From NCBI GenBank assembly GCA_021845665.1, contig JAJZVO010000030.1:1-51156 (forward strand): a DNA stretch of 51,156 nt, read 5' to 3'. Under the pieces are notes generated by a model. That model did no database searches. It worked only from the letters and a program-made list of their open reading frames with translations, and was not told the origin of the DNA. The stretch's first letter is position 1, and every line of letters begins with the position of its first letter. Both the position numbers and the translations under genes were made by a program. Positions 7,151-46,878 of this stretch are shown here, in pieces. Source of the stretch: Bacteroidota bacterium (GTDB lineage Bacteria; Bacteroidota; Ignavibacteria; Kryptoniales; JAKASW01).

Positions 7151-8179
7151 TTACCTCCCGCGGACCGCTTCGATAAACGCCCTGATGTTCTCGGTCTTGA
7201 CTCCGGGAGGCACTCCTCCGCCGCACGACATTATCACCCTCGACTTGTCATCGAGAGAATTCAGGAGAGCCTTAGTCGCTTCAGTGACATCCTCAGCAGT
7301 TCCACTCCCGAGAACGTCGCGCGGAGGTATGTTGCCGACCAGGGTGACTTTCCCTTTCGTCAAAGCCTTCAACTCGTTCAGTGTCACTTCAAATCCCATG
7401 TTGAACAGGTTTACTCCCATCTCGGGAAGGAAAGGCGCCGACACTTTGCACGGCGCGTCGTTGTGAAGGAACTTGACGGATACGTTCACATCGAACAGCT
7501 CCTTGAAATACGGCAGACCGAACGTACGGAATTCGTTCTCCCCCATGAAACCGATTATGTCGTCCAGTAGGAAGATGCCGTCTATCGAAGGGAACGTCTC
7601 CATCTGAAGACTGAGCCAGTTTTTAAGGTACGCGGTAATCTTCTTCATGAGGATCTCTGCCTTGTCGGGCTGCATCATCATCATCGTGAGAAACTCGGTC
7701 GAGCCCATAAGGTAACTTGCGACATTGAGCGGACCGCGTGCCACCGCAAAACGTATCTTGTGTCCGGCGGCTTCGATCTTAGGCTGGGCAAGCTTCAGTC
7801 GGTTCAGCATGAATGGCAGGAGTCCGTCTGTCCGAGGGTCGGGTTCCGGAAGATTGTCGATATCGTCGACGGAGTGGATGACTTTATGCGCAAACGGGAA
7901 CTCGTCGGGTGGAAACGTGCCTCGGGCGCCTAATGCCGATGGCTCGGTGCACATACCGAACTCGGACCAGAAGCCTGGGAGGAACATGACTTCCGGGAAA
8001 TCATTTATCGCCTTTAGGTTCGCATTAAGCCAAATCTCGTCGTTCGAGAAATAGTCGAGTATCTTTACGCCGTACCAATTCGGCAGCCATGGGCTGTCGA
8101 TTATGAAACCGATAGGAAGAGGAGTCGATGCCTCGCCGTTGATTGTCTTTAAGAGTATTTCCCATTGTCGGTCTGTCAT
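7151..8179 (-). CDS. UroD/MtaA-family corrinoid-dependent methyltransferase
   Basis: 342 aa, no signal peptide, cytoplasmic. The fold markers belong to the uroporphyrinogen-decarboxylase superfamily branch that contains MtaA, MtbA and CmuA rather than haem-biosynthetic HemE: a central IDGIFLLDDIIGF segment, FLHNDAPC (H239, C244) and MSCGGGVPPGVKTENI (C319). Those residues are candidate zinc ligands for thiol or methyl transfer. Such enzymes move methyl groups between a corrinoid protein and a thiol or folate acceptor, or demethylate a substrate. It lies 147 bp downstream of three genes for a dissected methionine synthase and is probably part of that unit, although a palindromic repeat separates them. 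The methyl donor cannot be read from the sequence. Confidence 0.8.
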   Translation of the reverse strand: MTDRQWEILLKTINGEASTPLPIGFIIDSPWLPNWYGVKILDYFSNDEIWLNANLKAINDFPEVMFLPGFWSEFGMCTEPSALGARGTFPPDEFPFAHKVIHSVDDIDNLPEPDPRTDGLLPFMLNRLKLAQPKIEAAGHKIRFAVARGPLNVASYLMGSTEFLTMMMMQPDKAEILMKKITAYLKNWLSLQMETFPSIDGIFLLDDIIGFMGENEFRTFGLPYFKELFDVNVSVKFLHNDAPCKVSAPFLPEMGVNLFNMGFEVTLNELKALTKGKVTLVGNIPPRDVLGSGTAEDVTEATKALLNSLDDKSRVIMSCGGGVPPGVKTENIRAFIEAVRGR

Positions 8180-8229
8180 GAAGGTTGCCTCATTTTCTTG
8201 ATCGTTGATTTTACAATGGCATCATGTGC

Positions 8230-8346
8230 AGCAAACTCTAAATGCCAGGCTCTAAATTCTAAACAAATAATGAATTCAAAAGCCACAGGCGAAACGCTTC
8301 TTTGAATTTCAATATTTTGGATTTGTTTAGAGTTTCGGATTTAGAC
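8230..8346. repeat. Imperfect inverted repeat of CTAAA/TTTAG-rich type overlapping a gene end
   Basis: The left arm (8251-8282) contains TTCTAAACAAAT and TGAATTCAAAAG. The right arm (8297-8345) contains CTTCTTTGAATTTC, ATTTGTTTAGAG and CGGATTTAGA in inverted order. A further CTCTAAAT unit lies at about 8235. The pattern resembles AT-rich palindromic intergenic repeats of other uncultured bacteria. It covers the last codons and the TAA of the reactivation-domain gene. Confidence 0.6.
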
Positions 8347-9070
8347 TTTCTCTTCGCCGGGTTGCACGGTAAGTGCAGTCCTTCACGCCGCAGCGGTCGC
8401 ATATATAATCTTTCCACTTCACGTCCGGGCCGATGCCAATAATTCCGCTTACCGATTTTATCGGATGCATCAGCGCGGACTCGGAAAGCGTGACGCCGCA
8501 GAAATTCTCAGGAAGAAGAGAAAACAAGAGATGCTGTTCCGAAACGGACCAGTTGCAGTAGCCAGGACTGTACCTGTTCGTTATATTGAGTCCAAGTGAC
8601 CGCATCTTCTCACCGATATGGTCGTGAAGCAGGTTCGTTACCGTTTCCGCAGCAGTGGACGCCGCGACATCTGCGATGTAACCGAGCGCCGGTTCATCGC
8701 CCTTCAGGAGTTGCCTTGACCATTCCTCCATTGATGGACCGATCGTCGCTACGAACAGAGCTGCCTGCGTCGATTTCTTCATTTGGCCTGTGACGATCTT
8801 GTCCAACCTGAAGAACGTACCGCCCACAACGAGTCCATCCAAACGTTCTTCCGGTCTACTTACATCGAGGATCCTGTAGCCTGCCCTTATGTCGCATCGC
8901 CTGGGGAGCTGTCCCGCTGCTTCATCGATCATTCCCGAAAAATGGACAGGTATCTCGCCGTCGGAATACCCAAGTGTTAGTTCTATTTCCGTCGTGTCGA
9001 ACGGGAGGTCTTCGAATCCGATCGAGACTTCGAAGGAATTCTTTTCTATTTCTGTTTCGCGAAGCCTCAC
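8327..9070 (-). CDS. Stand-alone methionine synthase activation (MetH C-terminal) domain protein
   Basis: 247 aa. The GTG start at 9070 overlaps the upstream TGA (GTGA) and is preceded by AAGGAG. It matches the MetH activation domain, which binds S-adenosylmethionine and reductively remethylates cob(II)alamin. The hallmark is NRYSPGYCNWSVSEQ followed by FCGVTLSESALMHPIKSVSG, the SAM and cobalamin contact region. The C-terminal segment has a cysteine cluster (CDRCGVKDC). In classical MetH this is the last domain of a polypeptide of about 1,200 residues; here it is separate, next to a separate corrinoid protein and methyltransferase. The final residues (ESLNPKL) and stop are encoded within a palindromic repeat, so the original C terminus may have been replaced. 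Role: keep the corrinoid protein active. Confidence 0.85.
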   Translation of the reverse strand: MRLRETEIEKNSFEVSIGFEDLPFDTTEIELTLGYSDGEIPVHFSGMIDEAAGQLPRRCDIRAGYRILDVSRPEERLDGLVVGGTFFRLDKIVTGQMKKSTQAALFVATIGPSMEEWSRQLLKGDEPALGYIADVAASTAAETVTNLLHDHIGEKMRSLGLNITNRYSPGYCNWSVSEQHLLFSLLPENFCGVTLSESALMHPIKSVSGIIGIGPDVKWKDYICDRCGVKDCTYRATRRRESLNPKL

Positions 9071-9951
9071 GCTGTCTTCAGCTCCTTCACGAGTGCTCGA
9101 ATATGCGCGGGCGTGGTCCCGCAGCATCCGCCGATGATGTTGGCGCCAGATTCCGCGAGCTTGCGCGCCTTTACGGCGACGATCTCCGGTGTTTCCGTAT
9201 AAATGAGTTTGCCGTCCTCGACAATCGGCAGGCCGGCGTTGGCATGGACGAGAACGGGCGTGGTGGAATCGGCTTTCCTGATTTCTTTGACGACGTCGAT
9301 CATCTGGTCGAAGCCGTTTCCGCAATTAGCGCCGATAACCGAGGCACCCGCATCCTTCACAGCCTTCACCATTTCTGCAGGAGTAACCCCCATCATGGTA
9401 CGATACTCGCCCTGTACCGTCCTGTCGAAGGTAAATGTGCAAATGACCTCCAACCCCGTCGCGTCCTTCGCCGCGCGGATCGCGATCGTGGCCTCGTCTA
9501 TGGCGGACATCGTCTCTATGATAATCGCGTCCACCCCGCCTTTCTTAAGGGCGGAGGCCTGGAGTCGAAAGCCGTCAGAAACCGCTTCTTCGCTCACCTG
9601 TCCCATCATGAGCATCTCGCCGGTCGGGCCGATCGAGCCGAGCACGAAACGTGAATCGCCGGCTGCTTCCCTGGAAATCGCGGCAGCTGCCTCATTGAGC
9701 TCCGCGGCGCGTCCCTGCAGATCATAATGGGCAAGTTTGATAGGCGATCCGCCGAAGCTGTTTGTGAGGATCATGCCGGCGCCAGCGTCGACATAACCCT
9801 TTGCCACGGCAAAGACACTGCTGCGATGGGTAAAGTTCCATAATTCCGGACATTCACCCGGCTGAAGTCCGCGCTCCTGAAGCATGGTTCCCCAGGCGCC
9901 ATCGGACACCAGCACCTTGCCGCTCTTCAGTGTTTCGATAAAAGAAATCAT
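9067..9951 (-). CDS. Homocysteine S-methyltransferase (MetH N-terminal / BHMT-like domain)
   Basis: 294 aa. It overlaps the corrinoid gene by ATGA at its start and the activation-domain gene by GTGA at its end, so translation is coupled. A pterin-independent homocysteine methyltransferase barrel opens with VSDGAWGTMLQERG. The zinc-binding cysteines are C210 (IGANCGNG) and C276-C277 (IIGGCCGTTPAH), the standard triad for activating homocysteine. Length matches the isolated Hcy domain of MetH. With the neighbouring corrinoid protein it should transfer a methyl group from methylcobalamin to homocysteine, giving methionine. No methyltetrahydrofolate-binding (pterin) domain is found in this operon, so the methyl source may be another donor handled by the UroD-like enzyme, or a folate enzyme elsewhere. 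Confidence 0.88.
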   Translation of the reverse strand: MISFIETLKSGKVLVSDGAWGTMLQERGLQPGECPELWNFTHRSSVFAVAKGYVDAGAGMILTNSFGGSPIKLAHYDLQGRAAELNEAAAAISREAAGDSRFVLGSIGPTGEMLMMGQVSEEAVSDGFRLQASALKKGGVDAIIIETMSAIDEATIAIRAAKDATGLEVICTFTFDRTVQGEYRTMMGVTPAEMVKAVKDAGASVIGANCGNGFDQMIDVVKEIRKADSTTPVLVHANAGLPIVEDGKLIYTETPEIVAVKARKLAESGANIIGGCCGTTPAHIRALVKELKTA

Positions 9952-10616
9952 TTCTGCACACCGCCGTTCAGGAAAGCGACGACCCCTTGTGGGTTGGGAG
10001 CATAACCGTCCGCACCCATTTGATCGGCGGCCTTCTGAGTCAGAGGCGCGCCCCCGACGATAACCTTCGTTCCGGGAAATTGCTCTTTTATCTCGCCGAT
10101 TGTCCTGGACATGTTGACCATCGTTGTTGTCAGCAGCGCGCTCAGACCGACCGTGCAGCCCGGATTCTGTTTCACCGCATCGATGAACTTAGCCGGCTTC
10201 GCGTCCACTCCCAAATCTATTACTTCCCAGCCGTTTCCCTCCACAACCATCGCAACCAGGTTCTTCCCGATATCGTGAAGATCTCCCGCAACCGTGCCGA
10301 TCACAAACTTACCTTTAGCTTTCACACTGCCGGTTTGGAAGAACGGTTTGAGGTGAGCCATAACGGCGTTCATCGCCTTTGCGGACATGAGAAGCTCAGG
10401 CACAAACACTTCGTTGCGACTGAACCTGTCGCCGATTCGCTTCATTCCGTCGCTGCATGCCTGAAGGATCTCGTCTGGTCCGACGCCCGCATCGAGAGCC
10501 CGGCGCGTCAGCTCATCGGTCCCTTCCTGACCCTGCATATCTCTAGGATAAGGAGATGATTTATTGACTTTACCGCGTTCAACACACTCGCCGATTCTTG
10601 CCACAAGATTTTCCAT
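9948..10616 (-). CDS. Corrinoid (B12-binding) methyl-carrier protein, MtaC/MtmC type
   Basis: 222 aa. An N-terminal helical cap (about residues 30-95, with GMKRIGDRFSRNEVFVPELLMSAKAM) precedes a Rossmann-like cobalamin-binding domain with the base-off/His-on motif GDLHDIGKN (His114 as lower ligand), then GLSALLTTTM and VIVGGAPLT for the nucleotide tail. It corresponds to the two central domains of MetH and to MtaC, MtmC and related carriers. As first gene of the operon it would shuttle the methyl group between the donor enzyme and the homocysteine methyltransferase. The start ATG has only a weak upstream AAGGG. An operator-like palindrome lies about 70 bp upstream. Confidence 0.88.
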   Translation of the reverse strand: MENLVARIGECVERGKVNKSSPYPRDMQGQEGTDELTRRALDAGVGPDEILQACSDGMKRIGDRFSRNEVFVPELLMSAKAMNAVMAHLKPFFQTGSVKAKGKFVIGTVAGDLHDIGKNLVAMVVEGNGWEVIDLGVDAKPAKFIDAVKQNPGCTVGLSALLTTTMVNMSRTIGEIKEQFPGTKVIVGGAPLTQKAADQMGADGYAPNPQGVVAFLNGGVQK

Positions 10617-13487: not shown

Positions 13488-15884
13488 CTATTTGACAAGG
13501 ACGAGTTTCTTGGACGCGGTGAATGTCCCGGCAGTAATCCTGTAAAAGTAGACTCCGCTCGACAGCTTGCTTGCGTTGAATGTTACTTCATAATAGCTGG
13601 GGTTCTGCTTTTCGTTCACCAGGGTCGCGACTTCTCTTCCGACTACATCATACACTTTCAAAACCACATGGCTGACCTTCGGAAGCTGATACCTGATGGC
13701 CGTGGTCGGATTGAACGGATTGGGGAAGTTCTGTTCGAGCCGAAAAGCAGTCGGCAGATTCGCGGCAACCTGCTGAACACCCAGCGGGTTGTTCTTGATA
13801 TAGTCGGCCATCCAAAGCAAAGCGGGCCTCACGCTTCCATCCGACCTCTCCAGGTAAGTGGATGTCTGCCAGACAAGCCCTTGTTTGTACCCCCACATCG
13901 TAATTCCTTTTATGCCGCGATGCTGCCACAACAGCGGAAAGATCTTCTTATAAAGATTCAACTGTTGATTATCGTCCGGAGTCCCTGAGTTGCCGGGGTT
14001 TCCAAGGTCGAATTCGGAAATATATATCGATATTCCTGTTGCCCACAGTTTATCCAGATTGCTTCTCATCATGGCGGTATCGGCGCTTTCGAGCTCGAAG
14101 CGATGCCCCTGGATCCCGATCCCGTCTATCAGATTACGATCTTTCAGCAAATTGATAATCTGCAGAAGGGCGGTCGTGTTCGTATTGCTGTTGATGATGT
14201 TGTAATCGTTCAAAATCAGTTTTGCATTCGGCATGTACTGTCTCGCCTTCTGGAATGCCCAGATGACCCAGTCCCATCCGGTAGCGCCCGGACCTCCGAG
14301 CGCCGGAGCATAGGGGGCGGGTGCGTGCCCGGGGAGCGGTTCATTCACGACATCTATCATGTCCATCTTCGGGTAACGTTGGCCTACCATCCTGATCCAT
14401 TGTTCGATGGCTGCGCGCTGTCGGGCCGAATCGAGACCGGAGCCGGTGATCCACGCCGGCTGTTGATTGCCCCAGACAAGGCAGTGTTCTTTGAACGGGA
14501 GTCTGTTGTTGATCGCGAAATTATAGGATGCGTCAAGACCGGTCCAATTCCATTGAGACGAATCGGCGGACACGGCGACCGAACCGAACTTGCCGGCATT
14601 TTCCGGCGTTACCTGATTCCAATAGTTCAGGAAGTTGGCTTCCTGGTTCGGCAAGTAGGCACTCCCGAGGAATTTTGCTTTGCCTGCGGCGAGTGCCGGT
14701 CCGTTCCAGACTGTGCCAGTATCGACCGAAGGCGGGGTCGCCAATCCGGCCTGCACGCTGTCGAGGTTTCTCACGGTGAAGTACAGGTAAGATTTCCCGA
14801 AGGCGAATTTGTCGATATCCAGCCCGTCTTCGCGGCTGCCGATCTGGAATATCCTAGTTAGACTGTCGGGATCGACATAGAAACTGTCGGCAGACTCACC
14901 CTGGTAGCCGTTCCTTGTAACATTTACCCATTTCCACATTCCGGAGCCGAGCGTTCCTGGATTCCTTACTACTGCGGAGGAATCCGAGAATCCTGCGCTC
15001 GCAAGACCGTTTATGAAAATCCAGTCTGCGCTTGCGGTATCATTCTTCACACCGAATCCGTTTCCGAAAAAGTAGCTGTCGTCATCGAAGGTATTGGAAC
15101 CGACGCGCAGCCGGGCAAACAGATCGTAGTATCCTGAATCGGGAAATGTAATCTGATAAGTCGCCACTCGACTTGTGTCGCCGGGGCTGGTAAGACCGGT
15201 GTAGGTCGTTTTCGGGGAAATGTAAGCAGTGGAACCATCCTGGAGAACCGAGTATTTACTCCCAAGGACTCCGGATTCGGCCTCCACAATAACAGGCTTC
15301 TTGCCGGCATTCGCATCGGCTATCCGAAGATTGTCTATGTAGATGGCGTTTCCGGTATCCGCAGCCGAGTAGAAATGGATAGGTGCCCTGATCACCCTAT
15401 TGGTGTCATTCACCGTGAACTGCATTGTGAACTGCTGCCATTGAGTACCGAGAGTAGCTGGACGTATCGTCTTATATTCAGAATATAAATAGTTTCCAAC
15501 CGTAAAATTCACGGTCGCTCCGCCTTTCTGTGCTTTTGCCCAGATCGAGTAGTTATACGTCGCGCCGGGCGTAACGTGGATGCTGTCGGCAACCAGTTGG
15601 ATGTCCCATTGATTGTTGCCCAGGCCGTGTAGCGTGACCTTGAGAGCACGGCTGCCGGACTGGACTGTGTCGCTTACTATTTCGTAAACCGGCGGCGGAG
15701 TTATGCCGGACGTAACGAGGATCAACCATCCTTTGATATCTGTCGTGTCCACAATCCCCGTGCTGGAGCTTTCGAAGCCTCCGTTCGTCACAAGCTGTGC
15801 CCTGATCGACGAGGTGCTCGTCAGCAGTGCCATGATCGTCAGAACAATCATGGCACTCAAATATTGTTTTGTTGCCCTCGACAT
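13488..15884 (-). CDS. GH10 endo-beta-1,4-xylanase with two carbohydrate-binding modules and T9SS tail
   Basis: 798 aa; ATG preceded by AGGAGG. Order: signal peptide (1-30, ending SIRAQ); CBM4/9-like jelly roll (about 31-190, opening LVTNGGFESS); a second beta-sandwich opening with VEAESGVLG, CBM35/CBM6-like (about 197-365); GH10 barrel (about 395-700); T9SS tail (about 715-798, FPNPFNPTTAI, YDVVGREVATLVN, SKKLVLVK). Catalytic Glu residues are E515 (DVVNEPL, acid/base) and E624 (YISEFDL, nucleophile); HCLVWGNQQPAW is the conserved substrate strand. It cleaves internal bonds of xylan and is probably attached to or released from the outer surface through T9SS. It sits between the decayed GH8 and GH30_8 genes in the same direction. 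Confidence 0.93.
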   Translation of the reverse strand: MSRATKQYLSAMIVLTIMALLTSTSSIRAQLVTNGGFESSSTGIVDTTDIKGWLILVTSGITPPPVYEIVSDTVQSGSRALKVTLHGLGNNQWDIQLVADSIHVTPGATYNYSIWAKAQKGGATVNFTVGNYLYSEYKTIRPATLGTQWQQFTMQFTVNDTNRVIRAPIHFYSAADTGNAIYIDNLRIADANAGKKPVIVEAESGVLGSKYSVLQDGSTAYISPKTTYTGLTSPGDTSRVATYQITFPDSGYYDLFARLRVGSNTFDDDSYFFGNGFGVKNDTASADWIFINGLASAGFSDSSAVVRNPGTLGSGMWKWVNVTRNGYQGESADSFYVDPDSLTRIFQIGSREDGLDIDKFAFGKSYLYFTVRNLDSVQAGLATPPSVDTGTVWNGPALAAGKAKFLGSAYLPNQEANFLNYWNQVTPENAGKFGSVAVSADSSQWNWTGLDASYNFAINNRLPFKEHCLVWGNQQPAWITGSGLDSARQRAAIEQWIRMVGQRYPKMDMIDVVNEPLPGHAPAPYAPALGGPGATGWDWVIWAFQKARQYMPNAKLILNDYNIINSNTNTTALLQIINLLKDRNLIDGIGIQGHRFELESADTAMMRSNLDKLWATGISIYISEFDLGNPGNSGTPDDNQQLNLYKKIFPLLWQHRGIKGITMWGYKQGLVWQTSTYLERSDGSVRPALLWMADYIKNNPLGVQQVAANLPTAFRLEQNFPNPFNPTTAIRYQLPKVSHVVLKVYDVVGREVATLVNEKQNPSYYEVTFNASKLSSGVYFYRITAGTFTASKKLVLVK

Positions 15885-20594: not shown

Positions 20595-22346
20595 TTATTT
20601 CATCAGAACCAACTTCTTCGTGATGGAGAGATTCCCTGCTTGCAGACGGTAGAAGTAGACGCCGCTGGCAAGCCTGCCGCCATTGAAGGTCACGGTATAG
20701 TTCCCGGGAATTTGTTGACCCGCGAACAAGGTAGCGACCTCCTCGCCCAGTACGTTGAACACCTTAAGCGTCACATAGCCCTTCGCCATAATGGAATAGT
20801 CAATCTGTGTAGTTGGGTTAAACGGATTCGGGTAGTTCTGCGCCAGTTCGAACTTCACGGGGAGAGGGCCAGGCCTTCCTTTCACGGCGAGGATTCTGCC
20901 GTTCGCGAGCCAGGTAGAGAGGCTGTCGTTTTCTGCTGTGGCCTGAGAACTCCACGATGTGTATTGAGTTGACCACCATCGGTACAGATCTCCCAGCGGA
21001 AACCCACCCATCGCAAAAGTCTTCAGCGTCGAATTCTGGTAAGCAAGATTCTCCTCCATAGGCCACACGGCATTGATGTCGTTCATCGGTTTCCACGCCC
21101 AGTTTGTGTCCGTGTTGTCATCCCATTTTTTGTTCATGAATATCTTTAACACCGCCGTGTCGGTGGGTGGATTAATGAAAAGGGGATTATTTGTCGTATC
21201 GAAACTAAACGCGGTCATGTAAGGAAACAGCTTCTTCCCGTCCGCACCCAACGAATCCAGAAAATACCACGATCGCGCGTTCATGAAAGGCTGCGGAACC
21301 GGTATCAGATCATCTTCCCTGTTTTGATGGCGGGTTTGACTGTATGGACAGTTCTTCATCCAATCGACAAGCCATGGATCAAGGCTGTAACTGCAGTGGG
21401 CAAACAGAACATGACGCTGCTGGTCCGTGAAAGGCACGCTAAATCCGAAATTATCGACGCTGTCTATGGCAAAAATGGCCCCATTCCCGCCTGCGGTATC
21501 CTGTGATGGTATGCTGCCGAACATCCAGGTGTTCTGAAAAACCGAATTCGTCACGATCAGATTATGCCACCAGCTTGATTCCAGCGGGAACATTATGATG
21601 TTCGAAAAAGTGCAGTGGTTGAACTTGACGTAATCCGCATATTCTCCGCCTTCTTGCATGAGGACATAGCCCATGTTCGCAAACGTGCAGTTCTCGAACG
21701 AAACGCTGTCTATGTGCCAGCCGGTAGAATTGTATGGGTAAGAGACCGCCCTGCCGTAATAGCGTAGATGACGATCAATGCAATTCTTCCAGTAACTATT
21801 CTTGAAATTTGCCACGAGATTCTTGCACGCAACGGTAACCGTACCGCCGGCATCCGTGGGACAATTGCAGTAGTCGAGGATGACTCCATCAAGTGTTATG
21901 TGTTCGTGCCCGTCCACTGTTGCAGTATCCTGCTGCATTCCGATGACGGTCTGCACCTGATTCCCGCTCGCATCGGCGAACATAAGCCAGACGTTCTTGA
22001 GGGTCACATCACCGAATGCGTTGATAAGGTAAGTGCGGTCCGGATTGCCCTGGGTGGTCCATACTATCTGAGGTGGCGCGGCGGTAGACGTCGGTTCCGG
22101 CGCTACGATCGTGAGCTGCTTGCCGGCCGGAACTTGTATAGAGCTTGTCAGGACATAGTAACCGCCGGCCTCCAGTTGAAAGACCGTGCTGGAGAGACTA
22201 CCCGCGTCAATCGCCGCCTGCACGGCTGTATTCAGATTTCCTTCCTGAGGAGGGTTGTCGCTTGCGACATTTACAATCGTCTGTGCAAACAGCGATGCGG
22301 GAAACATCACTGCCGCAAAGACCAAAGACCGAACAAATCGTTTCAT
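20595..22346 (-). CDS. T9SS-exported beta-helix protein paired with a TonB receptor (paralogue 1)
   Basis: 583 aa; start preceded by AGGAGAAG. Signal peptide 1-22 (ASLFAQ). The body is a right-handed beta-helix: LTIVAPEP, VTLKNVWLMFAD, ITLDGVILDYCN, SVSFENCTFANMGYVLMQ, VKFNHCTFSNI and IVTNSVFQNTW follow one another as coils. Before the tail is WPMEENLAYQ ... LKTFAMGGFPLGDLYRWW, a motif also found in the paralogue at 44967-46739 (GGFPVGDLNWF). It resembles the end of DUF4957/DUF5123-type beta-helix proteins of Bacteroidota glycan loci. T9SS tail: NYPNPFNPTTQI, FNVLGEEVATLF, ITKKLVLMK. No lyase catalytic pattern is clear. It follows the receptor gene by 125 bp. I infer a surface glycan-binding or delivery partner of that receptor. 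Confidence 0.8.
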   Translation of the reverse strand: MKRFVRSLVFAAVMFPASLFAQTIVNVASDNPPQEGNLNTAVQAAIDAGSLSSTVFQLEAGGYYVLTSSIQVPAGKQLTIVAPEPTSTAAPPQIVWTTQGNPDRTYLINAFGDVTLKNVWLMFADASGNQVQTVIGMQQDTATVDGHEHITLDGVILDYCNCPTDAGGTVTVACKNLVANFKNSYWKNCIDRHLRYYGRAVSYPYNSTGWHIDSVSFENCTFANMGYVLMQEGGEYADYVKFNHCTFSNIIMFPLESSWWHNLIVTNSVFQNTWMFGSIPSQDTAGGNGAIFAIDSVDNFGFSVPFTDQQRHVLFAHCSYSLDPWLVDWMKNCPYSQTRHQNREDDLIPVPQPFMNARSWYFLDSLGADGKKLFPYMTAFSFDTTNNPLFINPPTDTAVLKIFMNKKWDDNTDTNWAWKPMNDINAVWPMEENLAYQNSTLKTFAMGGFPLGDLYRWWSTQYTSWSSQATAENDSLSTWLANGRILAVKGRPGPLPVKFELAQNYPNPFNPTTQIDYSIMAKGYVTLKVFNVLGEEVATLFAGQQIPGNYTVTFNGGRLASGVYFYRLQAGNLSITKKLVLMK

Positions 22347-22471
22347 TTGACTTCTCCTTATATTTGTTTAAAGCTGCATAAAGCCAATGATGATTAAGTA
22401 AGAGGAGTATGATTACTCCAATTGTGTGTGGAGCTTTCCACTTTTTCGCCGACCTTTCATCCCTGGCATTT

Positions 22472-25400
22472 CTAAAGAGTTACTCTCAAGCCGACGTTTG
22501 CCGTGAAGCCGTAATACTGTTCATTTGTAAATCCACCGATCGATTGCTGAGCGGAAATATTGGTCTCACTATTCAGGTTGTTCGCATCAAGGTAAAGCTG
22601 TAGTCCAGACCACGGCAGCATCTGCCTGGCAGAAACGTCTATGCGGAAATAGTCCTTGGTGAAGCCGTCCTGTTCAGGGAAGTTTCCGATGGAGCTGACT
22701 GAATTTCCCTGGAAGACGAACGAGACACGTGCGGAGAATCCCCTGAAATCATAACCTATGTAAGCGTTCATTATGTCGTTCGGCTGGTAAATCAGGCGAC
22801 CGCTACGCGTACTGTCTATCAGTCTGAAACTCTGGTTTGGCGGTCTGCCGTAAGTGATGAGGTCCATCATCGGATATTGAGTGCTGGACCAGATGTGGGT
22901 GTAATTGGCACCAAGTAGCACACCGTTAAGAGGGAACGGTAAATACCATAGTCTTGTCTGAAAATCGGCCTCTATTCCCCTGACGTAAGCTAGATAGCGA
23001 TTGTTCACATACGTATACAGTGTGGTGCCTGGGTTTGGAGGGCTTCCGAGACCCGCAAACGTACCCACCGAATCAAGACCCGAGGGTATGATATGGCTGG
23101 CATCAGGGCTGTAGAGACGGTAAGAGGTGCTGTACGAGAAGTTCTTTATCTCCTTGTAAAAACCGCCGACCGACAGCAGTCCCAGTTCGTTGCTGTAGAA
23201 CGTCAGGAGCAGATCATGGTTATACGCCTGAGCAGGCTTCAGATTCGGATTACCCGACCACACCGGGCCGCCGCCGTAGCCTATGTTGTAGTGCGGGGAT
23301 AGTTGCGAGTAATCGGGTCTTGCGAGCGTCTGAGTATAAGAATAACGAATATCGCTCCAGCTGTTGATATCGAACTTTGCCTGAACCATCGGAAGCCAGA
23401 ACTTGCTGCCCGGATGAACTGTTACCACCTGTACATACGCGGGCTGCGTTGCGGGGCTGCGGCTATCGCGCAAGTTGTAAGCTGTGAAGGAAGATGTGAC
23501 CTCTTCGTATCGAATGCCTCCGACTATCATCAAGTTTGTTCCGAGGTCGAGCTCCGACATCGCGTAGCCGGCAGAGTAATTTTCGAGATAGACATAGTTG
23601 TTGGGAAGCTGCTGGAACAGGCCGTCGGTCCATCCACCGGCATTGGTCGCTCCGCCGGTTTCGTAGGCATAAAACGAGCTGAGAGACGGCACTCTCTGAA
23701 CGTAATTCGTAATAGCATTCAGCGTCGTGGGATCTGCAGCCCAGTACATCCGCCCGAATGTATTATCAAGGAAACTGTTATAAAGGCTTGGATCACTCGC
23801 CGTAAACTGGCCGGCGGGCAACTTTCCTCCTGCGAGCGAGTCGTAGTGAACGGATCTGCCGAAGGGTTGGGCAAGTATCGAATCCATCATGTCCCGCTGG
23901 ATCGGAGAGCCTCTGTCTATGTTCGTGTACGGAGTATGTTGATTGTTGGTATGGTTGTTGCGTCGGTACTGGCCGCCGAACTTGAAGAAACCTGAGACTG
24001 TAGCTCCGACATTCAAGGGAATCTTGAAGTCCCCCTTCACCAGTCTGTCGTACTCTTTGTAATCTGAGCTGAGCAAACTGATCGAAGTTAAATAGGTCTG
24101 ATCCGCACCAATGTAGCTGACGTTTGCCGCTAGACTGTCGGGAACCTTATTGATGTTCTTCGTCGGATCGGTGACCACCCCACCCGTCTGCCGGAACTGA
24201 TAATATGGAGAGGATGGGAGTGAATTGGTCGAATAGGTTAAAGCTGCAGTTACTTCCGCAGACATGAAACCGAAGTCGTTTCTGAAATCTATGGAATTGA
24301 CGCCGACATTATTGGTCGTGTTCCCGTTTCTGTATGTGAAATCGATTCTATTTCCCTGGTAATTCAGCCCGACATTATAATCCCGGTACTCAGAAATCAA
24401 CTGGCTGAACATGTTCGTCGATGTAATACTTCCGTTAGGCAGTCTGTAGTCAAGAATCACGTTCCCGCCGTACCGCTTTCTGGTTTCCAAGTGACGGTTG
24501 AGTGTCACGGTATTCACCTGAACGGGCCTGTACCCTGTCAGCGGGTCGATAATGGAAGAGTAGGTTGAATACGCGGCATTCATGATGTCGGCACTGCGAT
24601 CATACTGCTCGACGTTCCCGAGTACATACATGCCAAGATTATCATTGAAGATTCTATCGCTGACAGAAGCCACGGCTCTGTAATTTCCGTAGGTATTGCT
24701 TTTCTCGGTATAGCCGGATTGCCAGAGGGCATCTCCATGAAGTCCCGACGGCGCTTCCCTGAGTTGCATATTTACATAGCCGCCGATTGCGTTCGCTTCC
24801 ATATCGGGCGTGAGGGTCTTGTAGACCTCTATCGATTTAATCATGTATGGAGTTACCATGGTGAGGTTTACGCTTCGGTCATTGCTGATCGCCCCGGCGG
24901 TACCTCCCTGAGAAGCAGCACCGATCGTCGTGCTCCCAGTGGACGCGAGCGTAATTCCATCGACCGCGACCTCATTGTACTGAGGTGCCAACCCGCGGAT
25001 GACAACTTTATCGGCTTCACCGGAGCTTTGGAGGGTAGATACGCCAGGAAGGCGGCTTATTGCCTGCGCGGCGTTGAAATCAGGAAGCTCCTGGATCTTC
25101 GCCGACGAGACCACGCTCACAATCTTGTTGGAAGTCAGCTGCTGGTTGATCGCCTGAATCTGTCCCTGCGCCTGAGCTGTGACTACCACCGCCTTGCCTT
25201 GCAGCGCAGTCGCTTCCAGGTAGAAATCCTTTTCCAAGGTTACTCCATCCGGGACGTTGACATCTTCACTTGCCGATTTATAACCGACGTAAGTGACGAC
25301 AATCGTCTGGCGACCGCTCGGCGCGTTATAAATTGTATACGACCCGTTCAGATCGGTAGATGCCCCAACGCTCGTTCCCTTCACCAAAACCGTCGCCCCC

Positions 25401-25579
25401 GGAAGGATATCTTTCGTGTCCAGGTCGAACACCCTTCCTTTAACGGTCGCAGTTGCAAATCCCGACTGCGCCATGAGAAGGATCGCTGCCCCGCTCATAA
25501 AAAGCCCCATCAGTCTCCTGTGAGTGCCTTTCCGCAGCGATCGTGTTCTTGTTGAGATGAAATTGTTTACCCTTTTCAC
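22472..25579 (-). CDS. TonB-dependent outer-membrane receptor with carboxypeptidase-like regulatory domain (1)
   Basis: 1035 aa from the GTG at 25579, which follows GGAGGCATTGAC; an upstream open extension lacks a start site and runs through hairpins. A signal segment (FMSGAAILLMAQSGFA) is followed by a CarboxypepD_reg-like domain (VKGRVFDLDTKDILPGATV, VVTYVGYKS). The plug comes next (IQELPDFNAAQAISRLPGVS, DKVVIRGLAPQYNEVAVDG, MEANAIGGYVNMQL), then a long beta-barrel ending in an aromatic-rich strand (YGFTANVGLRVTL). The linker AQAQGQIQAINQQL is shared with the second receptor. The plug style is closer to the TonB-Xanth-Caul type than to SusC. The expected substrate is a xylan-derived oligosaccharide. 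No SusD gene follows; the next gene is the beta-helix protein. Confidence 0.9.
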   Translation of the reverse strand: MKRVNNFISTRTRSLRKGTHRRLMGLFMSGAAILLMAQSGFATATVKGRVFDLDTKDILPGATVLVKGTSVGASTDLNGSYTIYNAPSGRQTIVVTYVGYKSASEDVNVPDGVTLEKDFYLEATALQGKAVVVTAQAQGQIQAINQQLTSNKIVSVVSSAKIQELPDFNAAQAISRLPGVSTLQSSGEADKVVIRGLAPQYNEVAVDGITLASTGSTTIGAASQGGTAGAISNDRSVNLTMVTPYMIKSIEVYKTLTPDMEANAIGGYVNMQLREAPSGLHGDALWQSGYTEKSNTYGNYRAVASVSDRIFNDNLGMYVLGNVEQYDRSADIMNAAYSTYSSIIDPLTGYRPVQVNTVTLNRHLETRKRYGGNVILDYRLPNGSITSTNMFSQLISEYRDYNVGLNYQGNRIDFTYRNGNTTNNVGVNSIDFRNDFGFMSAEVTAALTYSTNSLPSSPYYQFRQTGGVVTDPTKNINKVPDSLAANVSYIGADQTYLTSISLLSSDYKEYDRLVKGDFKIPLNVGATVSGFFKFGGQYRRNNHTNNQHTPYTNIDRGSPIQRDMMDSILAQPFGRSVHYDSLAGGKLPAGQFTASDPSLYNSFLDNTFGRMYWAADPTTLNAITNYVQRVPSLSSFYAYETGGATNAGGWTDGLFQQLPNNYVYLENYSAGYAMSELDLGTNLMIVGGIRYEEVTSSFTAYNLRDSRSPATQPAYVQVVTVHPGSKFWLPMVQAKFDINSWSDIRYSYTQTLARPDYSQLSPHYNIGYGGGPVWSGNPNLKPAQAYNHDLLLTFYSNELGLLSVGGFYKEIKNFSYSTSYRLYSPDASHIIPSGLDSVGTFAGLGSPPNPGTTLYTYVNNRYLAYVRGIEADFQTRLWYLPFPLNGVLLGANYTHIWSSTQYPMMDLITYGRPPNQSFRLIDSTRSGRLIYQPNDIMNAYIGYDFRGFSARVSFVFQGNSVSSIGNFPEQDGFTKDYFRIDVSARQMLPWSGLQLYLDANNLNSETNISAQQSIGGFTNEQYYGFTANVGLRVTL

Positions 25580-25895: not shown

Positions 25896-26489
25896 TCAGC
25901 GAACCTCCGCAATCCCCGACTCACCGCCGACTGTGCGGCGCGATGCCAGGTCTTCTTCTATTGTTATCATCATCTTGTTGGTGAGAGGATAGAAAAGCAT
26001 AAGGAGCCCGCCGGCAAATGCCGATGCGAAACGGCAAAAAGATAGCACCGTCCGCTGTTCGGAACTTGACGTGATTGCTCCCATCAACGCCGAATACGGC
26101 ACGCTGATGGCAGAATACAGCGTCATCATGAAGGAGCAGGTTACGTAAGCGTAGATAAGTTTCCCTGGCGTGCCAAATCCCGGAGTCGTGAAGGTAAGTG
26201 CGCCGATGAGGCCGAAGGGAAGCGCAAACCAGAGGAGGAAGGGCCTGAATTTACCCCAGCGCGTGTGAGTTCTGTCCGAGAGCATCCCGACGATCGGGTC
26301 GAAGAAAGCATCCCATATCCTCGTGACGAGGAACATAGTTCCCACCGCCGCCGCCGGAAGGCCGAACACGTCGGTGTAGAAATAGAGTAGGAATAGAATG
26401 AACGTTTGGAAGAAAAGGTTCGACGCAGTATCGCCGAGGCTATACCCTATCTTTTCTTTCAGAGACAATTTGCCCGTAGTTGTCTGCAC
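25896..26489 (-). pseudogene. GPH-family sugar:cation symporter, 5' fragment only
   Basis: 197 codons from a GTG at 26489. It begins as a typical glycoside-pentoside-hexuronide symporter of the major facilitator superfamily: KEKIGYSLGDTASNLFFQTF, YFYTDVFGLPAAAVGTMFLVTRIWDAFFDPIVGMLSDRT, then RWGKFRPFLLW. Family members have 12 transmembrane helices and about 450-500 residues. Here the frame loses similarity after FAGGLLMLFYPLTNKM, at roughly helix 5-6, and ends in a polar stretch leading into a repeat element. The remaining helices are not found nearby, so transport is unlikely. The intact protein would have carried xylosides or other oligosaccharides across the inner membrane. It lies downstream of GH3 and was probably co-transcribed with it. 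Confidence 0.75.
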
Positions 26490-26682: not shown

Positions 26683-29001
26683 TCAGACTACTTTTAAAAT
26701 GACTTTCTTCAAATCAGAATCACACGACGAATTTCCTACCATGATTTCAAAATCTCCGGGCTCGACGGTCAACTTCATGTCGATATTAGTAAACTGCAAA
26801 TGCTCCGGAGTAATCGGAATTTCGACCGTCTTAGTCTCGCCGGGTTTCAGCGATATCTTGCTGAATCCTCTTAATTCTTTCACCGGACGCGTCACGGAGC
26901 TGAAGACATCGTGGATATACATCTGGACCACCTCTTTGCCCTCACGCTTGCCGGTATTCTTCACGTCGACAAATACACTCGTCGACTCTTTCGATGAAAT
27001 AGTGTCCTTCTTCAGCCTAACGTTATCGAAACTGAAAGCGGTATAACTCAGGCCGAAGCCGAACGGATAAAGCGGCGTGACATCGCCGAACAAGTATCCC
27101 CTTCTTGCGGAAGGTTTGTGATTGTAGTACACCGGGATATGCCCGGCAGATCTCGGTATGGATATCGGGAGTTTGCCGCTAGGATTGTAATCGCCGAACA
27201 AGACATCGGCGACGGCGACGCCCGTTTCCTGGCCGAGATACCAGCATTCGAGGATGGCCGGGACATGATCGTTGACATAATTAATCGAGTTAGGTCTGCC
27301 GTTGAAGAGAAGCACGATCACCGGCTTTCCCGTCGCGAGAACGGCTTTCACAAGGTCGTTCTGCATTCCGACGAGATCAAGATCGGCTCTGTCTCCGAGA
27401 TGGATCCTGCTCCAGGCCTCTCGAGAAGTCTGCTCGGTATCGCCCAACGCGAGTATTGCAAGGTCCGCTTTGCGCGCCGTCTCCACTGCTTCAGCGATGA
27501 GCTTCCTGTTCCCCTCCGGATCAGGAAGGACTACTGAATCTTCATTCCAGTTGCCGCCGACAGTCACCTTGCATCCTTCGCTATATATGACTTTCGCATT
27601 GCTACCGGCTTTCTCCCGGATCCCGTCGAGCACGGTGGTGTAAAATTTCGGAGTACCGCTATACCCGCCGAGAACCCTCCGGTTTGCATTCGGACCTATT
27701 ACTGCTACGGTGCCTGCCTTTTTCAAATCGATCGGGAGAAGATTCCCTTCGTTCTTCAGAAGGGTTATCGTCTCGCGCGCCGATCTGAGGGCCAGCTTCC
27801 GGTCTTTCTCAAGTTTCGCATCGTTCCGAATGGCTTCCGGATTTACATAAGGATCGTCAAAGAGTCCGAGACGGAATTTATACTCAAGCATCGATCCCAC
27901 CAGCTCGTCCAGAACGCTCTCGGCGAGCTTCCCATTCCCAACGAGCTCAGCCAGGTGAGGATAACAATCCACGTCGGGAAGCTCGATATTGACGCCGGCC
28001 TCCGCTGAAAGAAGGGCAGCCTCGGATTTGCTCGCGGCGACTGCGTGACTTTCGGTTTCAGGCTTCAAATGCAGCTCAGTTATGGCGTAGTAGTCTGAAA
28101 CGACATATCCCTTGAATCCCCACTCGTCTCTCAAGACGTCGCGCAGGAGCCACTTGTTGGCGTGCGATGGTACACCGTCGATCTCGTTGTAAGATGCCAT
28201 CACGCTCATCGCCCCGGCCTTCTGAATGACTTCCCTGAAAGGATATAGGAAGGTATCCCGGAGAAGACGTTCTGAAACATTTACCGGGGCACAGTTCGTC
28301 CCGGATTCCGGCTGACCGTGAGCGGCGAAATGCTTTAACGTCGCGATGACCCGTTTCTTGTCCCCGAATTTCCCGTCTCCCTGGAAGCCTTTGATGACGG
28401 CTATGCCGAGGCGGGAAATGAGATACGGATCCTCCCCGAAGGTTTCCTCGACTCTTCCCCAACGGGGATCGCGCGCAACATCGAGAACTGGGGTGAGTGC
28501 CTGATGAGCGCCACGGGAACGGGCGTCCTCGGCGATAGCGGTGTAAATTTCTTCCAACAATTCCGGGTTAAACGTCGCTGCCAGTCCGATCGGCTGCGGA
28601 TAGCTGGTAGCATCTTTAGCTGCAAGACCATGGAGACATTCTTCATGGAACACAGCGGGAATGCCGAGTCTGGTTTCCTCCACAAAAAATCTCTGAAGCG
28701 CATTGGCCAGTTCCGCCATTTCGACTGCGCTCAGTCCACCCCCGGTGTCGCTCAGCCTTCCCATCTGACCGATGCCATCCTTAAGATACTGTCCGAGGTC
28801 GCTCAACCGAAGCTTGCCATCGTGATCGAACAATATGCTTTTCTTCTGTCCCCACACGCAGAGCATCTGAGCGACCTTTTCCTCAACGGTCATACGACCG
28901 AGGAGGTCAGCCACTCTCTCTTCCACCGGAAGCTTCGGGTTCTTGTAGTCAAGAACTTCGTCCGGCCTAACCGATTCTCTCACAGGAATTTTCTGGACCA
29001 T
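26683..29001 (-). CDS. GH3 beta-glycosidase (beta-xylosidase/beta-glucosidase type)
   Basis: 772 aa, with no convincing signal peptide, so probably cytoplasmic. Three-domain GH3: an (alpha/beta)8 domain with DVARDPRWGRVEETFGEDPYL and KHFAAHG; nucleophile D303 in GFKGYVVSDYYAI; an alpha/beta sandwich (TITLLKNEGNLLPI, VAVIGPNAN, ILALGDTE); and a C-terminal fibronectin-like domain (PLYPFGFGLSYTAF, KNTGKREGKEVVQMYI). The family removes terminal beta-linked glucose or xylose from oligosaccharides; in this context xylo- or cello-oligosaccharides are likely. It is the first gene after the promoter at 29403-29456, with a leader of about 400 nt, and precedes the truncated symporter. The pair would have formed an uptake-and-hydrolysis unit. 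Confidence 0.92.
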   Translation of the reverse strand: MVQKIPVRESVRPDEVLDYKNPKLPVEERVADLLGRMTVEEKVAQMLCVWGQKKSILFDHDGKLRLSDLGQYLKDGIGQMGRLSDTGGGLSAVEMAELANALQRFFVEETRLGIPAVFHEECLHGLAAKDATSYPQPIGLAATFNPELLEEIYTAIAEDARSRGAHQALTPVLDVARDPRWGRVEETFGEDPYLISRLGIAVIKGFQGDGKFGDKKRVIATLKHFAAHGQPESGTNCAPVNVSERLLRDTFLYPFREVIQKAGAMSVMASYNEIDGVPSHANKWLLRDVLRDEWGFKGYVVSDYYAITELHLKPETESHAVAASKSEAALLSAEAGVNIELPDVDCYPHLAELVGNGKLAESVLDELVGSMLEYKFRLGLFDDPYVNPEAIRNDAKLEKDRKLALRSARETITLLKNEGNLLPIDLKKAGTVAVIGPNANRRVLGGYSGTPKFYTTVLDGIREKAGSNAKVIYSEGCKVTVGGNWNEDSVVLPDPEGNRKLIAEAVETARKADLAILALGDTEQTSREAWSRIHLGDRADLDLVGMQNDLVKAVLATGKPVIVLLFNGRPNSINYVNDHVPAILECWYLGQETGVAVADVLFGDYNPSGKLPISIPRSAGHIPVYYNHKPSARRGYLFGDVTPLYPFGFGLSYTAFSFDNVRLKKDTISSKESTSVFVDVKNTGKREGKEVVQMYIHDVFSSVTRPVKELRGFSKISLKPGETKTVEIPITPEHLQFTNIDMKLTVEPGDFEIMVGNSSCDSDLKKVILKVV

Positions 29002-40622: not shown

Positions 40623-43004
40623 CTACTTCAACAAAAGCAGTTTCATTGTCTTTACAAACTTACCCGCCTCGATTCTGTAGAAATAAACTCCGTTCGCCAG
40701 TCTGCTTGCTTCGAAAGTGACTTCATAATAACCGGCGGACAATTCCCTATCGACCAGAGTTTCTATCTCTCTTCCCAGGAGATCGTAGATCGTTAGTCTT
40801 GTCGGCGCCGATATCGGCAAAGCGAATTTTATTTTCGTAGATGGGTTGAACGGATTCGGATAGTTCTGGTTCAGTGAAAACTCAGCGGGCATTCCGCGTC
40901 CTCTTATCACGGCCGTCGGATTCGAAGAAGCCTCGTTGCTGTATACCGATTCCAGTGAATCGTTATATGCCTTCACACGGTAGATATATGTTTGAGACTG
41001 GCCGGCACTTTTGTCCACATATTCGCTCCCGCTCCCGTGCAATGTATCGACGACGCCGAAAGTCGTATCGGTACTCTGCCGGCGTTCGATCACATATCCA
41101 CTTTCAATAGTGGAATTGTCCTTCCAGGTCAGGATTATCCCACTCGACCCGCTGTCCTGAGCGACAAGATTCGTCGGCGCGTATATAAATGTAAACCCCG
41201 GCACGTCACTCCATGGACCTGAGCCTGCGAGATTGACCGCTTTGACGTGCCAGAAGTATTCAAGTCCCTCAGAGAACCATGAGATGATTTTGAACGTATC
41301 GGACACCATCGCCTGCTTGGAAATATTATCGAACGTCGGCCAGCGTGATATCTGGATCTGATACTGATCCGCATCCTGTACCTTTTTCCAGGTGAATGTG
41401 CAATAGCCGTTCCCGGAAGGGAATGCGGAAACCGGCTCCGCGGTAGAAGGCGCAGTCTGCGTCGTGATGAAATTCCAGATATTGCTCCACGGACCTAGGG
41501 CAGCAGAAGTACTCACCCTGACGCGCCAATAGTACTTCCGGTTTTTCGATAGTCCGCTGAATGCTACAGACGTATCCGTCGTCGTCGAATCGGTCATGTC
41601 GATTGTCTTGAAAGACTGGTCGGTCGAAAGTTGAACCAGATATTTTTGGGCCTTCTCTATCCTGTACCATTTCAACGTAACGCTTGTATCCATGCCCGCC
41701 TGGGCGTTGGACGGATAGGCCAACTTCGCGAAATAAGTCGTGTCCTTGGCGAGTGTCGGGTCCGTCCAGGTAATCCATTTGGAAAGATCTATGCTGTAGG
41801 AATTGTCGGAGAAGTTGCTCGTGTTAACGGTATCCTTGCCGAGCATGTACTTGTCCACGAAGGCTTCGATCTCGGGCACCTGGCTAGACGGGACGAGGCA
41901 GTGCATATGCCCGCCGACGATGGAGAAGCCGAACCTGTCGGGTATGCCGAAAGCTTCGTAGACCTGCCTGCATGCTTCGCTGGCAACGTAGCACGACGGA
42001 TTTGAGAGCCAGGTGTAATCAGGATTTCCCGTGACAAACAACGCGCGGGGAGCACACATTGCCATCAGCTCGTGATGGTCCTCGGGGAGACGTGAGACAT
42101 TATCGCCGGAAAACCGGTTCATCGAATTCATGAACCAGTTGTAGTTCGTGTTACCTATGCCTTCAACGCTGTTGGCCGGCTCTGTCTGAGAATATCTCCA
42201 TGAGGTGGCCCCGCCGCCGCCTGATTCCTGTGCGATCGTAAGCGCGATACGCTCGTCGAACGCTCCGGCGAATAGCGCCATCTTGCCGGCGTACGAACAG
42301 CCGGTGACCGCAATGTGCTTCAGATCTATCGGGAGACCGTTTTGCACGAGTTCCAGGCCGTCGATCAACCGGCTGACCCCCCATGCCCAGGCGCTGTACT
42401 GCCCGGAGTTGTCGAGGTTGAGATAAGGATAGAGCCGGTAATAGGGATCGGTATTCGAGGGATTACCGTACGACGTCACCTGGTCGTGCAGGAACGCGAT
42501 CTCCGCAATGTTCCGGCTCGAAAAGATGCTCCCCGGAACGCCGCCGCTGGGACTGTTCATACCGATCACGACCGGAAAGGGCCCGGTCCCGGACGGAAGG
42601 ATGACTCTCGAAGTCAGTGTGAGCGTCCGGCCATTCACTGTTACATTTACCGTGAGTATGCTGTCGGAGTAGCTTGCAGTGATGCTGTCCGGCCGTGGAG
42701 GCTTTGGACCGATTTCGTAATTCTGAATCTGTGCGCCGATCTCGGCCCGCCTGAGCCGCCAATCCGAGTAGTTCGACATGCGCCCTCTTTCGTCGGCCCA
42801 CTGGAACGGGTCCGGCAACGGATGGATGATTCGCAGTTCGCTGAATGAAGGCAAGTAGGGGATCGGACAGTCGGCGCCCGTGTTTTCGACGTTATACACT
42901 AGGGGCATTGTTTGAGCCGATGCATCAATGAACGCGTAAGTGCCTGAGATCAAAATCAGGATTACCAGCCACATTCTCATCTTGATTTTCCTGCCTTTCA
43001 TCAT
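40623..43004 (-). CDS. CE15 glucuronoyl esterase with fibronectin-like modules and T9SS tail
   Basis: 793 aa. Its start overlaps the isomerase stop (ATGA). Signal peptide 1-31 (FIDASAQ). The CE15 alpha/beta-hydrolase carries the diagnostic nucleophile motif TGCSYAGKMALFAGAFDERI (Ser237), AWAWGVSRLIDGLE, the following AQESGGGG (acidic residue) and a histidine in GGHMHCLVP (His366/368). Known CE15 enzymes cut ester bonds between lignin alcohols and 4-O-methylglucuronoyl side groups of xylan. Residues about 405-700 hold three fibronectin-III-like domains (YYWRVRVS, YFWHVKAVN, YIYRVKAYN). The T9SS tail ends the protein (NYPNPFNPSTKI, YDLLGREIETLV, TMKLLLLK). Together with GH30_8 it marks glucuronoxylan as the target. 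Confidence 0.92.
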   Translation of the reverse strand: MMKGRKIKMRMWLVILILISGTYAFIDASAQTMPLVYNVENTGADCPIPYLPSFSELRIIHPLPDPFQWADERGRMSNYSDWRLRRAEIGAQIQNYEIGPKPPRPDSITASYSDSILTVNVTVNGRTLTLTSRVILPSGTGPFPVVIGMNSPSGGVPGSIFSSRNIAEIAFLHDQVTSYGNPSNTDPYYRLYPYLNLDNSGQYSAWAWGVSRLIDGLELVQNGLPIDLKHIAVTGCSYAGKMALFAGAFDERIALTIAQESGGGGATSWRYSQTEPANSVEGIGNTNYNWFMNSMNRFSGDNVSRLPEDHHELMAMCAPRALFVTGNPDYTWLSNPSCYVASEACRQVYEAFGIPDRFGFSIVGGHMHCLVPSSQVPEIEAFVDKYMLGKDTVNTSNFSDNSYSIDLSKWITWTDPTLAKDTTYFAKLAYPSNAQAGMDTSVTLKWYRIEKAQKYLVQLSTDQSFKTIDMTDSTTTDTSVAFSGLSKNRKYYWRVRVSTSAALGPWSNIWNFITTQTAPSTAEPVSAFPSGNGYCTFTWKKVQDADQYQIQISRWPTFDNISKQAMVSDTFKIISWFSEGLEYFWHVKAVNLAGSGPWSDVPGFTFIYAPTNLVAQDSGSSGIILTWKDNSTIESGYVIERRQSTDTTFGVVDTLHGSGSEYVDKSAGQSQTYIYRVKAYNDSLESVYSNEASSNPTAVIRGRGMPAEFSLNQNYPNPFNPSTKIKFALPISAPTRLTIYDLLGREIETLVDRELSAGYYEVTFEASRLANGVYFYRIEAGKFVKTMKLLLLK

Positions 43005-46739: not shown

Positions 46740-46878
46740 GACCTTGCCTCCAGTTTGGATTTTGGAAATGAATCAAAAGAGTTCTGCTCAAACGCGTAAA
46801 TGTTCTCAGGGATTCCTCTGCCCTCCTTTCGTTCCTCAAGCAGGTTTAGTTTCATGACGGATTCGTCCACGATAATAC

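Follow-up and report, generated by a model that had tools for sequence, protein, structure and literature searches.

A TonB-dependent receptor and a beta-helix protein with a type IX secretion tail that look like an overlooked nutrient-capture pair recurring in several phyla

Two receptor/beta-helix gene pairs on one contig

We analysed contig JAJZVO010000030.1 of a Bacteroidota bacterium from the order Kryptoniales (assembly GCA_021845665.1; positions 1 to 51,156, forward strand); this whole stretch of 51,156 nucleotides is referred to here as the window. It contains two copies of a gene pair in which a TonB-dependent receptor is followed by a right-handed beta-helix protein, hereafter the partner, that carries a C-terminal sorting tail of the type IX secretion system (T9SS). 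The original prediction, which was made from the letters of the window, described a receptor followed 125 bp on by a T9SS-tailed protein, with the same order repeated at 44967-49986, and it had coordinates, strand and order right. The genes are:

22472-25579, minus strand: TonB-dependent receptor copy 1; CarbopepD_reg_2, Plug and barrel; TIGR01782; PF13715, PF07715
22347-22471, minus strand: receptor-partner gap of copy 1, 125 bp; 6-pair hairpin at 22404-22419
20595-22346, minus strand: partner protein copy 1, 583 residues; signal peptide, right-handed beta-helix core (20946-22286), motif WPMEENLAY...GGFPLGDLYRW, T9SS type A tail
46879-49986, minus strand: TonB-dependent receptor copy 2; TIGR01782; PF00593, PF13715, PF07715
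44967-46739, minus strand: partner protein copy 2; signal peptide, beta-helix core, motif WPIPINLSY...GGFPVGDLNWF, T9SS tail

The two partners are homologous over their full length (28% identity, E 1e-46), with the strongest similarity in the C-terminal motif and tail, and the two receptors are 34% identical with many gaps. Both receptors are 1035 amino acids long with the chosen start codons, as had been pointed out, but the open frame of copy 1 runs on to 25924 (1150 amino acids), such that its start codon is uncertain; given this ambiguity and the gapped 34% identity, we dropped equal length as a sign of a repeated cassette. The gap between receptor and partner is 139 bp in copy 2. An attenuator hairpin in the gap is unsupported, since folding scored against shuffled sequences gave z values of -1.7 for copy 1 and +0.75 for copy 2.

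Pairing within and across genomes

All genome-wide counts come from searches of the genome assembly (4.64 Mb in 135 contigs, 96% complete), which encodes 23 TIGR01782-type receptors. Three of these are not judgeable, two because they run off contig ends and one (C58) because only 720 bp of contig are left. Every one of the remaining 20 has a member of the partner family downstream on the same strand, immediately so in 18 cases and after one extra gene in the other two (C41 and C55); we had considered C55 and C41 as exceptions with other partners, and dismissed them as such because the family member lies one gene further on in both. Viewed from the partner side, a profile search found 24 family members. 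Two of them, C98 (apparently what is left of the C131 gene) and C7, sit at the edges of contigs; of the 22 placeable copies, 20 are paired with a receptor and two are orphans. Chance adjacency is excluded, because the pairing recurs genome-wide.

Within the class, 48 of 197 genomes carry the partner family; among 296 genomes sampled from the phylum it is found in 44, of which 22 lie outside the class. Named relatives that have it include Kryptoniota, Ignavibacteria, Melioribacter, KSB1, Calditrichota, Latescibacterota and Saprospiraceae. We placed 134 distinct homologues for which flanking DNA was available: 110 lie directly downstream of a receptor (median gap 92 bp), nine within one to three genes of one, and 14 do not. 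Three rows scored as having no receptor (L191, L260 and L263) are probably artefacts, with long antisense frames hiding the receptor in the greedy gene call, and L260 does have a receptor. The organism names that we give to relatives' loci (Melioribacter roseus, Rhodothermus marinus) are inferred. In the presumed M. roseus, all nine strong TIGR01782 receptors have a beta-helix partner, and the lone SusCD pair is a separate operon; the naming of this single-contig genome rests in part on its having one SusCD operon (PMC3534657). Whether the beta-helix homologues are usually beside receptors had been raised together with the original prediction, and the counts from our genome and from elsewhere both say that they are. 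The pairing is far more general than the two copies in the window.

At locus L319 (G152:C1, about 2.7257 Mb) of the presumed M. roseus, one TIGR01782 receptor gene is split by a transposase-like open reading frame upstream of its partner.

We compared distances among receptors with distances among partner cores for 17 pairs from the same genome as the window, and found a Mantel r of 0.864, a value that none of 10,000 permutations reached (best 0.62). Species history cannot confound this correlation, because all of the pairs are from one genome. When 99 pairs from many genomes were pooled, r was 0.92; shuffling the partners within genomes gave 0.78 on average and never more than 0.86 (0 of 5,000 shuffles reached the observed value). 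These comparisons show that the pairs stay together and diversify together, which does not by itself imply contact.

The receptor belongs to the TIGR01782 subfamily

Both window receptors score above the curated cut-off of 310 bits for TIGR01782 (TonB-Xanth-Caul), copy 1 with 319.9 bits and copy 2 with 338 bits. By contrast, TIGR04056 (SusC/RagA) matches only the N-terminal ~200 residues, with 65.3 and 66.3 bits against a cut-off of 368. We therefore rejected the idea that the receptor is a SusC that lost its SusD. The description of the receptor as "SusD-less" holds to the extent that our analysis of the window turned up no SusD gene, but the subfamily is a different one from SusC. The TonB receptors for carbohydrates in Xanthomonas have no SusD (PMC1790865), and since the receptor here is of the type that is SusD-less in Xanthomonas, the absence of SusD is to be expected and is not a loss. 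An AlphaFold2 model built from 28 receptors (predicted local distance difference test, pLDDT, 81) is a plugged TonB-type barrel, with BtuB (top VIA match, Z 37), FhuA and FecA as its best fold matches; SusC structures were not among the top matches in this list, which is not exhaustive.

We also noted a second, weaker group of TIGR01782-like receptors (~900-950 amino acids) without a beta-helix partner, in L275, L280, L285 and L289. Downstream of the receptor in L275 and L289 comes another kind of T9SS-tailed protein, and L275 also has a PstS-like gene nearby.

The partner is a T9SS-tailed protein with a predicted beta-helix and a family-specific motif

The partner had been described as a secreted beta-helix protein with a T9SS tail; its tail, an apparent signal peptide and a predicted beta-helix agree with that description. 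The tails of the two window partners score 41.5 and 43.6 bits with TIGR04183 (T9SS type A; cut-off 23) and 38.2 and 35.8 bits with PF18962 (cut-off 27). Signal peptides are apparent by eye as hydrophobic N-termini that mostly end in A-Q and have no lipobox cysteine, and the genome encodes the T9SS translocon SprA. Pfam gave no beta-helix call for the two window partners (PF13229 reached only E 0.55, in copy 1); the beta-helix assignment comes from an AlphaFold2 model of copy 1, which is a right-handed beta-helix (pLDDT 83; predicted template modelling score 0.89). The core alignment covers 18 paralogues from the genome over ~445 positions. The WPxxxNLxY...GGFPxGDLxxW motif that was originally noticed in both partners is real and defines the family: its general form, WPLPENLxYxN...GGxPxGDLNWFP, is near-universal, being present in 145 of 148 homologues when counted by its GDLxW part.

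The closest solved fold to the partner model is the C-terminal domain of BcAlyPL6, a two-domain alginate lyase of polysaccharide lyase family 6 (PL6), with Z 29.6 over 302 aligned residues at 16% identity; the next-best match is well under this, at Z 23.6. The top matches comprise PL6 lyases, pectate lyases and tailspike depolymerases. The C-terminal domain of BcAlyPL6 is reported to aid substrate positioning and pocket closure, and to have weak lyase activity (PMC8618178). A search of the PDB with the partner profile returned nothing useful, the SusD Pfam family was not among the matches at E values up to 10 in 18 partner members, and there was no convincing match to a Pfam enzyme family among the members. 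PL6 lyases have a catalytic Lys/Arg pair in their N-terminal domain. In the alignment of 148 partner members, no lysine exceeds 53% conservation, and only seven charged residues exceed 80%: D3, R167, D193, H224, R291, E412 and D433 (copy-1 core numbering, consensus letters).

Comparison of profiles with hhalign connected the partner to the DUF4957/DUF5123 lipoproteins (96.6%, E 5e-10, 213 columns); an unrelated beta-helix from the window, used as a control, gave 1%, although this control is a single sequence and so weaker than a profile. Scores stay below the Pfam gathering score, the best being E 0.0028 (PF16318) in one of 18 members and E 0.0092 (PF17161) in one member, and neither window partner has a curated match to PF16318 or PF17161. 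In three loci (L320-L322), the DUF4957/DUF5123 lipoproteins stand third, after SusC and SusD.

SusD genes occur apart from the pairs

Signals for PF14322/PF07980 in the genome are only weak and lie on one contig (C86), more than 32 kb away from the receptor/partner pair there; one of these weak SusD signals adjoins a separate SusC-like gene. Twenty-eight of the 36 family-carrying genomes of the class have no PF14322 match, and three have a match above the cut-off. A SusD partner encoded beside these receptors in relatives would have spoken against the original prediction, and none was present in the relatives that we checked. In G332, a SusD gene lies 7 kb from a receptor/partner pair, and the TIGR01782/partner pair is retained even in relatives from other classes that have many SusD genes.

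Judging by gene order and length, the pair at L259 corresponds to Rmar_1070/Rmar_1071 of the published xylan locus of R. marinus. In this polysaccharide utilization locus, Rmar_1070 (a TonB receptor) and Rmar_1071 (a hypothetical protein with a por tail) are predicted to be co-transcribed with a GH10 xylanase, and SusC and SusD are the separate genes Rmar_1077 and 1078 (PMC6987092). Since SusC and SusD are separate genes in L259, the receptor/partner module exists beside SusCD, and not as a replacement within one transporter.

The pairs lie among genes for plant cell-wall degradation

The two window pairs have as neighbours genes for glycoside hydrolases (GH10, GH8, GH30-like, GH9, GH3), an arabinofuranosidase-type enzyme, a GDSL esterase and a glucuronoyl esterase. 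Three of these genes are:

13488-15884, minus strand: GH10 xylanase with CBM4_9 and a T9SS tail (PF00331 201.7 bits, PF18962)
26683-29001, minus strand: GH3 beta-xylosidase/glucosidase, upstream of copy 1 (PF00933, PF01915)
40623-43004, minus strand: glucuronoyl esterase-like, fn3 and T9SS tail, downstream of copy 2 (PF22244 239 bits)

Around other pairs in the genome, GH3, GH10, GH2, GH53, GH8, GH43 and sigma/FecR genes recur. The most likely substrate is xylan or another plant cell-wall fragment, because GH10, GH8, GH3, GH9, arabinofuranosidase and glucuronoyl esterase genes surround the pairs.

Two further features of the window deserve mention. The stretch directly upstream of receptor 1, at 25899-26489 (minus strand), codes for an apparently truncated MFS_2 sugar:cation symporter that comprises the N-terminal ~155 of 427 residues; a congener locus (L292) has a 501-residue gene with a similar N-terminus at the same place. 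At 7151-10616 (minus strand), URO-D, B12-dependent methionine synthase activation, homocysteine S-methyltransferase and B12-binding domains together resemble a corrinoid methyl-transfer system.

Discussion

The receptor and the beta-helix protein look like an overlooked nutrient-capture pair that recurs in several phyla. That they form a dedicated module of a receptor and a surface partner is well supported, and we consider it likely that this is an outer-membrane nutrient-uptake module in which the partner captures substrate for the receptor. The original prediction had proposed an uptake module with the beta-helix protein in the SusD role; the pairing on which it drew is strongly supported, but its SusC/SusD frame is off, since the receptors are TIGR01782. 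Surface capture in gut Bacteroides is done by lipoproteins (SusD, surface glycan-binding proteins (SGBPs) and BtuG). We propose that the partner here would enter the periplasm by means of its signal peptide, use type IX secretion to cross the outer membrane, and be held at the cell surface, where the beta-helix would capture substrate and hand it over to the adjacent receptor, a TIGR01782 TonB-dependent transporter probably for oligosaccharides. We infer the surface location, the binding of glycan and the physical contact with the receptor, and likewise that the partner may capture glycan as SusD does or cap the receptor. A more specific version, which we put forward tentatively and regard as somewhat doubtful, is that the module may be a second, widespread counterpart of SusCD, in which a beta-helix lid delivered by type IX secretion, and not an alpha-helical lipoprotein, caps the TonB receptor and docks through WPLPENLxYxN...GGxPxGDLNWFP, as the main route of glycan uptake in SusD-poor Ignavibacteria-like and Kryptoniota-like lineages.

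Several observations weigh against an uptake module of this kind. Adjacent genes that duplicate together would give matching trees without their products touching. Receptor C58 has no partner in the remaining 720 bp of its contig. Two partner copies, C30:94856 (with an added fn3-like region) and C124:1196, have no adjacent receptor, and four Latescibacterota homologues (L173, L174, L177 and L181) are real exceptions, with opposite-strand genes upstream and no receptor nearby; these copies suggest that the partner may also work independently of a receptor. Proteins with T9SS type A tails are not necessarily anchored and can be released. The weak lyase activity of the BcAlyPL6 C-terminal domain (PMC8618178) leaves catalysis possible for the partner. 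As to the SusD-like role, the position of the DUF4957/DUF5123 relatives equally suggests a surface glycan-binding accessory role, not that of a SusD-like lid. In an orphan homologue at L081:7321-10254 (minus strand), which lacks an adjacent receptor, the core is separated from the T9SS tail by ~400 additional residues that look fn3-like by eye.

The alternative that we take most seriously, and consider quite possible, is that the partner is an accessory surface glycan-binding protein and not a lid, gathering polysaccharide like SusE/F or other SGBPs near any transporter or enzyme, with a TIGR01782 receptor that needs no cap. It overlaps our explanation of a dedicated uptake module except on the SusD-like role. 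Its case is made by the DUF4957/DUF5123 relatives that stand third after SusC-SusD (L320-L322), by the Xanthomonas carbohydrate receptors that work without SusD (PMC1790865) and by the existence of orphan partner copies; however, near one-to-one pairing and matched evolution are tighter than would be expected of a loose accessory. The fold matches to PL6 lyases, pectate lyases and tailspike depolymerases, together with the reported weak activity of the BcAlyPL6 C-terminal domain (PMC8618178), raise the alternative that the partner is a surface enzyme, i.e. a beta-helix lyase, hydrolase or epimerase that trims polymer for its receptor. We think this unlikely, since the match is to the C-terminal and not the main catalytic PL6 domain, no lysine is conserved above 53% and only seven charged residues are above 80% across the 148 members, and no Pfam enzyme family fits convincingly.

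With ~150 matches to the T9SS tail in the genome, and T9SS proteins common beside genes for carbohydrate-active enzymes, the partner could instead be a passenger of the operon, co-regulated and co-inherited for growth on plant polymers, and acting as an adhesin or secreted scaffold without a role in uptake. That it is one family, rather than T9SS proteins at large, that follows TIGR01782 receptors across several classes and phyla, and that the matching of trees persists even against within-genome shuffles, makes such a passenger improbable. The logic could also run in reverse, with the receptor serving export or assembly of the partner, which would likewise account for adjacency and one-to-one pairing; Oar, a TonB-dependent transporter, is reported to be required for PopC secretion in Myxococcus (PMC6434023). 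By analogy this would be conceivable, but it seems very improbable here, as the partner comes with a complete T9SS tail of its own, the genome encodes the T9SS translocon and glycoside hydrolases abound in the loci.

In Bacteroidota, searches for glycan uptake loci commonly go by SusC/SusD pairs, such that genomes built on the receptor/beta-helix module would score few or none. If the pairing is functional, a TIGR01782 receptor together with a T9SS protein bearing the GDLNW motif would be a simple marker by which an uptake route could be recognised in several classes and in neighbouring phyla, there would be a direct link between type IX secretion and nutrient import, and TonB receptors would have acquired a surface-capture partner on more than one occasion. 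The partner family, which is currently annotated by its sorting tail alone, gains a testable role.

Comparison with known systems

The module resembles SusC/SusD importers in that a receptor with an N-terminal CarbopepD_reg_2 domain stands beside a candidate for surface nutrient capture in glycoside hydrolase loci. It differs in that the receptor is TIGR01782, not TIGR04056, and the partner is beta-helix T9SS cargo, not a lipoprotein of the SusD family; a locus that has both systems (L259) encodes them as separate gene pairs. With the TIGR01782 receptors found in carbohydrate utilization loci containing TonB-dependent transporters (CUT loci) of Xanthomonas and Caulobacter, the receptors here share the subfamily (above the curated cut-off), the carbohydrate loci and the absence of SusD; they differ in having an N-terminal CarbopepD_reg_2 domain and a dedicated T9SS beta-helix protein downstream. 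T9SS is not known from Xanthomonas and Caulobacter.

The DUF4957/DUF5123 (PF16318, PF17161) lipoproteins share profile homology with the partner, a beta-helix ending in a G-D-x-x-W signature and a position after transporter genes. They are, however, lipoproteins with N-terminal immunoglobulin-like regions that stand third after SusC-SusD, whereas the partner is T9SS-exported and directly follows its receptor. The C-terminal domain of the PL6 alginate lyases BcAlyPL6 and AlyGC is the closest solved fold, from which the partner differs by its 16% identity, its lack of the catalytic N-terminal PL6 domain, its T9SS tail and its family-specific C-terminal motif.

In the open-licence literature that we searched, the receptor/beta-helix pair is not described as a system. 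Rmar_1070/Rmar_1071 is apparently the same module, with no difference in kind, and Rmar_1071 is listed only as a hypothetical protein. BtuB/BtuG sets a precedent for the capping of a TonB receptor by a surface protein other than SusD (PMC10404256). As in these B12 importers, a non-SusD surface protein appears to be dedicated to one TonB receptor, and the receptor fold here resembles BtuB (Z 37); BtuG, by contrast, is a lipoprotein lid that differs in fold and has B12 for a ligand.

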